Both the position numbers and the translations under genes were made by a program. From Prevotella sp. (lineage in GTDB: Bacteria > Bacteroidota > Bacteroidia > Bacteroidales > Muribaculaceae): DNA of 58,932 bases. The DNA lies in assembly GCA_023666665.1 (NCBI GenBank), contig JAMPBN010000006.1, positions 1 to 58,932 on the forward strand. The letters run 5' to 3'. The notes beneath the pieces were generated by a model. That model did no database searches. It saw only the letters and a program-made list of their open reading frames with translations, and was not told where the DNA came from. Below are positions 4,781 to 5,016 of the stretch, one piece after another (positions within the stretch are counted from its first letter, which is position 1; each line of letters starts with the position of its first letter).

Positions 4781-5016
4781 GGGCATCGGGCTTTAGGCGT
4801 TGGGCGTTGGAATTTAAAAATTAAAAATTAAGAATTAAGAATTGGGCGTTGGGAGTTAGGCTTTCGATATCCCGATATCCCGACATCCCGACATCCCAAC
4901 ATCCCAACATTCCAACACTCAACCACTCTGCCACTCTGCCACTCCGCCACTCCGCCACTCTGCCACTCCGCCACTCCGCCACTCTGCCACTTTGCTACTC
5001 CGCCACTTTATCACTA
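4781..5016 (+). repeat. Drifting heptamer/octamer tandem array upstream of ligA
   Basis: The whole gap between the kinase stop and the ligA start is one tandem array. Positions 4781-4864 divide into exactly twelve 7-bp units (gggcatc, gggcttt, aggcgtt, gggcgtt, ggaattt, aaaaatt twice, aagaatt twice, gggcgtt, gggagtt, aggcttt). Positions 4865-5016 divide into exactly nineteen 8-bp units that change stepwise: cgatatcc, cgacatcc, caacatcc, caacattc, caacactc, aaccactc, tgccactc, cgccactc and variants. The last base of the last unit is the A of the ligA ATG. No other feature is visible in the gap. Confidence 0.93.

Follow-up and report, generated by a model that had tools for sequence, protein, structure and literature searches.

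The gap that separates a gene of the uridine kinase family from ligA in the window (the whole stretch of 58,932 nucleotides that has been analysed, from the Prevotella sp. genome that we refer to as G000) is 237 bases long and consists almost entirely of short repeats, which make better sense as a pair of arrays, opposite in strand polarity, that run into each other head-on at 4864/4865. Arrays with the same layout, a G-rich arm facing a C-rich arm, surround small genes of a single protein family, PF05635, in the Muribaculaceae and beyond. No PF05635 gene is present between the arms of the ligA array, nor does the contig of the window contain a PF05635 match at E <= 0.001, and for this reason we read the array as a gene-less derivative: it probably consists of solo facing arms of PF05635-type elements, whose arms would be copied with errors and rewritten together.

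The array in front of ligA

The features of the region, all of them on the forward strand, are the following:

3132..4778, + strand: upstream gene, phosphoribulokinase/uridine kinase family (PF00485, E 1.6e-20)
4779..4864, + strand: left (G-type) arm, 12 heptamers (from lag-7 identity and G minus C)
4865..5015, + strand: right (C-type) arm, octamers up to the ligA start codon (from lag-8 identity, unit order and G minus C)
5016..7022, + strand: ligA, NAD-dependent DNA ligase (PF01653 plus other DNA ligase domains)

The original prediction had divided the region without remainder into heptamers and octamers, and this division is exact: positions 4781-4864 are 12 heptamers and positions 4865-5016 are 19 octamers. 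The autocorrelation that had been suggested as a check places both periods far above 500 dinucleotide shuffles: the lag-7 identity of the left arm is 0.74 (shuffles: mean 0.27, maximum 0.46) and the lag-8 identity of the right arm is 0.85 (shuffles: mean 0.33, maximum 0.47). As a caveat, the words of the left arm pass from GGGCGTT-like to AATTAAG-like and back to GGGCGTT-like, the two word families sharing one common phase.

The octamers of the right arm drift from CGATATCC through CAACATTC to YGCCACTC. The differences between adjacent octamers add up to 22, whereas putting these units into another order 20,000 times gives totals of 52.7 on average and never below 30. The differences between adjacent heptamers add up to 20, compared with a reordering mean of 31.5 (P = 0.008); the octamer steps comprise 18 transitions and 4 transversions, and the heptamer steps 11 transitions and 9 transversions. 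The order of the units supports both the stepwise drift and the chain of copying with occasional change that had been proposed from the sequence, with the caveats that the final octamer departs from the preceding one in 4 of its 8 bases and that the strong period-8 signal stops at 5007; the chain had been described without noticing that the polarity switches where the period changes from 7 to 8. G minus C is +21 at 4778-4860 and -57 at 4865-5007; the switch of period at 4864/4865 is, on the top strand, a switch from G-rich to C-rich. Both periods are real, but the idea of one array that changes its period gives way to the better reading of two arrays that meet.

A gene with the same C-terminus is located upstream of ligA in all nine same-genus genomes that have a ligA match (a tenth same-genus genome has none), with gaps of -1 to 44 bases. 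Selection on the spacing to ligA, which had been offered as a reason for the constant period, finds no support in these nine sister species, where the same two genes lie so close together, and a single array with selected spacing is rejected on account of the short sister gaps together with the coincident switch of polarity. The comparison of sister gaps, another of the proposed checks, has returned about three units, possibly heptameric by eye, in the longest gap alone (G005, 44 bases); since none of the nine sister species has a longer gap than this, the long array before ligA is a gain in this lineage.

The arms of the ligA array are not complementary as RNA (RNA fold z -1.1), and their words and periods differ; selection for a hairpin is unsupported by this fold, and the lack of complementarity, together with the different periods, indicates that the array is not a simple emptied element. 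Its order, G-rich and then C-rich, is that of the facing arms in the two-armed PF05635 element that we propose. STRR is the name for cyanobacterial short repeats, and the left arm has the properties of heptameric STRR-like repeats (a period of exactly 7, an intergenic location and related units), while the octameric right arm falls outside this class. The flanks of the array are the uridine-kinase-family gene and ligA, so that it does not lie inside a ribosomal RNA gene as a 23S rRNA intervening sequence (IVS) does, and a search of the array against Rfam has given no match at the gathering threshold.

Arrays across the genome

The scan for arrays of period 7 or 8 that had been recommended was run over 459 kb of G000, about a fifth of the genome (the window and 20 stretches of 20 kb), and the array before ligA is one of many. 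With the stricter threshold, 28 segments have period 7 and 7 have period 8, each of the other periods up to 12 being represented by at most 4 segments; periods 14 and 16 are echoes of 7 and 8. The segments form 47 clusters, of which 11 change from G-rich to C-rich and none in the opposite direction; 18 are G-rich only, 13 are C-rich only and 5 are unclear. The 31 clusters of single polarity count against a two-armed element. Many arrays of G000 abut start or stop codons, according to crude gene calls, and some lie inside genes. Two further arrays of the window have both arms:

39377..39457, + strand: second octamer array, of the same word family, with a G-type and then a C-type arm and no gene between them
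48127..48202, + strand: facing heptamer arms, G-type and then C-type, in frame inside a gltD-like gene

The latter arms sit between two domains of the gltD-like gene and would be a predicted linker if translated. Elsewhere in the window, a match to the 6S-like Bacteroidales-1 RNA (11243-11466) leaves two bases before a heptamer array.

The spread of the words is lineage-specific. The octamer pattern CCACTNNGCCACTNNGCCACT is matched 51 times in G000, overlaps included, and never in 197 other genomes of its family; the heptamer pattern GGCNTTRGGCNTTRGGCNTT, searched in 198 genomes, has 38 matches in G000, 19 in G203 and 1-4 in each of six others. The octamer arm before ligA runs from GACATC-like to GCCACT-like words, and both kinds of words are also found elsewhere in the sample, for example in a GACATT array (L177, 18841-18924); the CAACA intermediates that were tested occur, within the 459 kb, in the ligA array only.

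Ordinary local slippage and mutation, with no element or dedicated protein and with a period of 7-8 that reflects polymerase geometry, would account for the close likeness of neighbouring units and for units mostly of 7 or 8, and a polymerase-footprint idea for heptamers is cited in the available text of PMC4692102. As the origin of the arrays we consider it unlikely, for it leaves unexplained why one word family occurs at many loci of G000 and in none of the 197 other genomes, and also the polarity rule and the matched facing arms around one gene family that are described below.

PF05635 genes between facing arms

At two loci, L165 in the sample and one on contig C9 of G000 (L228), a small gene is located between facing arms, and both genes belong to PF05635 (23S_rRNA_IVP), a family of four-helix bundles. 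Our search of 24 genomes has found PF05635 above the Pfam cut-off in 16 of them, at 34 loci in total; the whole genome of G000 has 3 such genes. Up to 200 bases were taken from each side of the gene, and the left flank was compared with the reverse complement of the right flank, with a threshold score of 11. The statistics cover 33 of the 34 loci, the excluded one being L217 (34.4 bits, a 209-residue frame), whose flank score of 9.5 is below the threshold. All 33 Muribaculaceae loci have an inverted flank match (median 25), compared with 8 of 200 control genes obtained from a crude reading-frame caller (median 8) and with 28 of 200 mismatched PF05635 flank pairs. Periodicity on both sides of the gene is seen at 31 of the 33 loci and at 3 of the 200 control genes. 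The period of the arms is mostly 7, with a clear 8 at L226 and L228 and 11 at L227.

The loci also largely share their polarity: the G-rich arm precedes the gene in 38 of 43 loci (the 33 loci and 10 of 12 further ones, L307 and L314 being omitted because they are located at contig ends), which is the same rule that the gene-less two-sided clusters of G000 follow (11 to 0). The five reversed loci include L213, where the arms match better as direct repeats than as facing ones (37.5 vs 20).

In G000, at least 4 of the 51 matches of the octamer pattern are located in the arms of the PF05635 locus on contig C9, and the RNA fold of this element pairs its arms (z -3.1). The profile match of the octamer-armed gene begins at position 7, and the gene may be damaged at its 5' end. 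We have seen no PF05635 gene with GGCGTT-type arms in G000, despite the 38 matches of the heptamer pattern there; the third PF05635 locus (L232) has long arms of hairpin-bearing repeats, not simple heptamers. Sampled stretches of five same-genus relatives contain six clusters, all of them in the 100 kb from G001, a genome with four PF05635 loci over the cut-off, one of which has two of the six clusters as its arms; no clusters were found in the stretches of G002, G005, G006 and G010, a small sample of 160 kb together. G002, G005 and G010 have no PF05635 match over the cut-off, and G006 has a damaged one.

The PF05635 genes might instead be passengers that prefer existing arrays, the arrays themselves being of other origin. 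The numbers in G000 speak for this account, as the 459 kb contain 47 clusters, of which two form the arms of a single gene-bearing locus, against 3 PF05635 genes genome-wide, but it does not explain why each locus has a word of its own that is common to both arms (own flank pairs match at 33 of 33 loci, mismatched pairs in 28 of 200), or why many Bacteroidota loci have, by eye, arms of just two or three units; we regard it as rather improbable. Another possibility is that the arrays are scars of break repair, in which both 3' ends would be extended by G-rich units and then joined head-on, as in a telomere fusion. Such end healing would give the G-to-C polarity, and also a ligA array whose two halves are unrelated in word and period, but it does not predict the matched words on both sides of PF05635 genes, and these matched arms have led us to demote it to a distinctly improbable account. 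An assembly artefact is unlikely, because the same pattern occurs at many loci in separate genomes.

We have found no known catalytic activity for PF05635. The only solved structure that is recovered by sequence is 2gsc, the protein XCC0516 of Xanthomonas campestris (E 1.1e-20), which is described as a ring of five in the available text of PMC4990558. The accessible parts of the literature mention PF05635 genes from cas loci (PMC3936711; PMC10910872), from rRNA insertions (PMC11270868) and as Avd-like genes (PMC10053308).

Change of words at orthologous sites

Eight comparisons between orthologous loci, which cover six sites and are not independent, were made where both flanking regions can be aligned over 548 to 1407 bases with 70-89% identity. 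Six of them, from five sites, show arms that match each other inside each genome (scores of 17.5 to 30) but not on the same side between genomes (3 to 10), with PF05635 proteins that are 44-75% identical; in the other two, the words are kept. In the pair L212 and L240 the proteins are 44% identical between flanks that are 86-87% identical, which suggests that the gene may have been replaced or inserted twice. From the match within genomes and the mismatch between genomes at shared sites, it appears that both arms of a locus tend to change their word together.

The site before ispF carries a PF05635 gene with octamer arms in G000 and a damaged one with heptamer arms (AGTGGAG) in G006; G009, G004, G007, G010 and G002 have these two neighbouring genes at a short distance from each other and no PF05635 gene between them, while the stretch in front of ispF is a different one in G001, G005 and G008. 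A ligA tree, from which G002 and G010 were left out, does not settle the order of G000 and G006. In both G000 and G006, the C-rich arm is open in frame with ispF (L289, about 1400-1510; L291), downstream of a candidate start ATG that lies inside the element.

The prediction that the word of a locus recurs across its genome was tried with one word, CTAGTNN, which was taken from the arms of a locus of G216 (L204) and searched as a pattern of three units. It has 66 matches in G216, where the 20 places among those listed are all on contigs other than the source, and it is absent from 191 of 198 genomes; elsewhere, it occurs in G088 (87 matches), G022 (26), G150 (12), G203 (3), G188 (2) and G210 (1). 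A PF05635 locus with CTAGTTT arms is present at a shared site in G022 and G088, and the PF05635 locus of G188 has a near word (TTAGTCN); none of the PF05635 loci that were read in G150 (2), G203 (5) and G210 (3) has CTAGT arms, though arrays are present. In G150, a long uniform CTAGTTG array is located at C7:56324-56412, with no matching PF05635 locus among the two that were read. Transposition was not observed in these comparisons, which counts against an element.

PF05635 loci in other phyla

A protein search of plasmids has found 29 records with PF05635, mostly cyanobacterial. Sixteen of them, chosen by hand, were read (14 cyanobacterial, one from Riemerella and one from Gemmatirosa; two loci, L251 and L254, are near-copies), and 14 of the 16 loci have matched facing flanks, compared with 84 of 400 mismatched flank pairs; the misses are L250, where the arms match as direct repeats, and L255. 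The Gemmatirosa locus (L258) has octamer arms. In three cyanobacteria, the plasmid PF05635 genes lie between cas genes (L244, L250, L253).

In the Bacteroidota, 113 of 148 genomes are over the PF05635 cut-off. Among the 30 loci that were compared, which are the best-scoring ones and not a random sample, 22 have matched facing flanks, against 37 of 400 mismatched pairs; the arms are often short, and both flanks are periodic in only 6 of the 30. The left arm is the G-rich one in all 14 plasmid loci over the match threshold and in 19 of the 22 Bacteroidota loci over it, the remaining three being ties and none reversed.

Discussion

In REPIN/RAYT systems, many gene-less repeat units coexist with few protein-bearing copies that have matching repeats, a composition that the present arrays share; RAYT is a transposase, whereas PF05635 is not known from our searches to have a catalytic activity. 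The likeness to the 23S rRNA IVS lies in a PF05635-type gene between inverted repeats that are able to pair as a long RNA stem, as in the IVS of Coxiella, where the available text describes an S23/IVP frame between such repeats (PMC4990558). Unlike the IVS, the present elements are located between protein genes, their arms are tandem repeats of 7 or 8 bases with locus-specific words, and many arrays have no gene.

The heptameric repeats of Xanthomonas and Nostoc (Rehm et al. 2015, PMC4692102) are, in the accessible portion of that account, mostly intergenic, with variable units and convergent pairs, and near genes they are mostly found on the non-coding strand upstream or on the coding strand downstream. 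The present arrays resemble them in period 7, in the mostly intergenic location, in the convergent pairs and in the G-rich strand that points out of genes, and the polarity of the PF05635 arms agrees with this strand placement; octamers of the present word are not seen in the same portion. The TAACTGA repeats of Beggiatoaceae, cyanobacteria and Bacteroidetes (MacGregor 2015, PMC4679880), as far as the text at hand describes them, are likewise sets of heptamers, many of them immediately before start codons, with a patchy distribution over phyla; they differ in being centred on one word, for which a role in translation has been suggested. According to a term search, the main texts of both papers contain neither "four helix" nor "S23". 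In the available parts of both, the heptamer arrays of cyanobacteria, Xanthomonas, Beggiatoaceae and Bacteroidetes have no agreed origin; Xanthomonas is the source of the structure 2gsc and also of described heptamer repeats (PMC4692102). In the literature covered, which consists mostly of titles and abstract openings and leaves subscription papers and preprints largely outside, no link between PF05635 genes and heptamer or octamer arrays was found; the link is apparently new, although this is not proof of novelty.

The position of the Xanthomonas and Nostoc repeats near gene ends, where their G-rich strand is directed away from the gene (PMC4692102, available text), and the many arrays of G000 that abut start or stop codons by crude gene calls, would also suit structural or regulatory repeats, whose G-rich units would be kept for quadruplexes or for an action as RNA near gene ends. 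This seems very unlikely to us, as many words have no GGG runs (AATTACT, TTCATAA, GCCACTYY), the gap before ligA is short in nine sisters, and some arrays lie inside genes. That a reverse transcriptase copies an RNA template into arrays, in the manner of diversity-generating retroelements with their PF05635-like Avd protein, is extremely improbable. PF05635 proteins do score to Avd models, although weakly and under the curated cut-offs (P0001: E 1.9e-7 and 1.6e-4), and RVT_1 has two matches in G000 and some in G001, G006, G027 and G022, but the search of 12 genomes did not find it in 7, including the array-carrying G203, G216, G210 and G088 (drafts 95-99% complete), and thus leaves this copying unsupported.

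In the PF05635-type element that we favour, a G-rich arm is followed by the PF05635 gene and then by a C-rich arm, and the ligA site, where the left arm is heptameric and the right one octameric, would be a composite of solo arms. An arm would grow by the copying of a neighbouring unit with errors, when a 3' end re-anneals one unit back, so that words would drift along the arm, and the facing arms would be equalised through copying across the hairpin. The copying would be self-templated, by slippage or hairpin copying with ordinary DNA polymerases, and not reverse transcription; the PF05635 protein, whose ring may hold several units, would help to make, match or spread the arms. More tentatively, and as a possibility that we rate below an even chance, these loci may represent a class of tiny mobile elements in which a pentameric four-helix-bundle PF05635 protein, lacking a transposase and a reverse transcriptase that belong to it, causes facing arms to be made, and jointly rewritten, in whatever word is current, and spreads gene-less arms of that word genome-wide; such elements would be the common source of the heptamer repeats of cyanobacteria, Xanthomonas and Bacteroidota, and the ligA array would be one word family caught in the course of changing into another.

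PF05635 is a widespread family of no known function, and its link with the arrays gives the arrays and the family each a testable partner; short repeats scattered over several bacterial phyla may find their explanation in the same link. If arms agree inside each genome and yet differ between genomes at one and the same site, this would be an unusual mode of DNA evolution, one that can be followed in culture.
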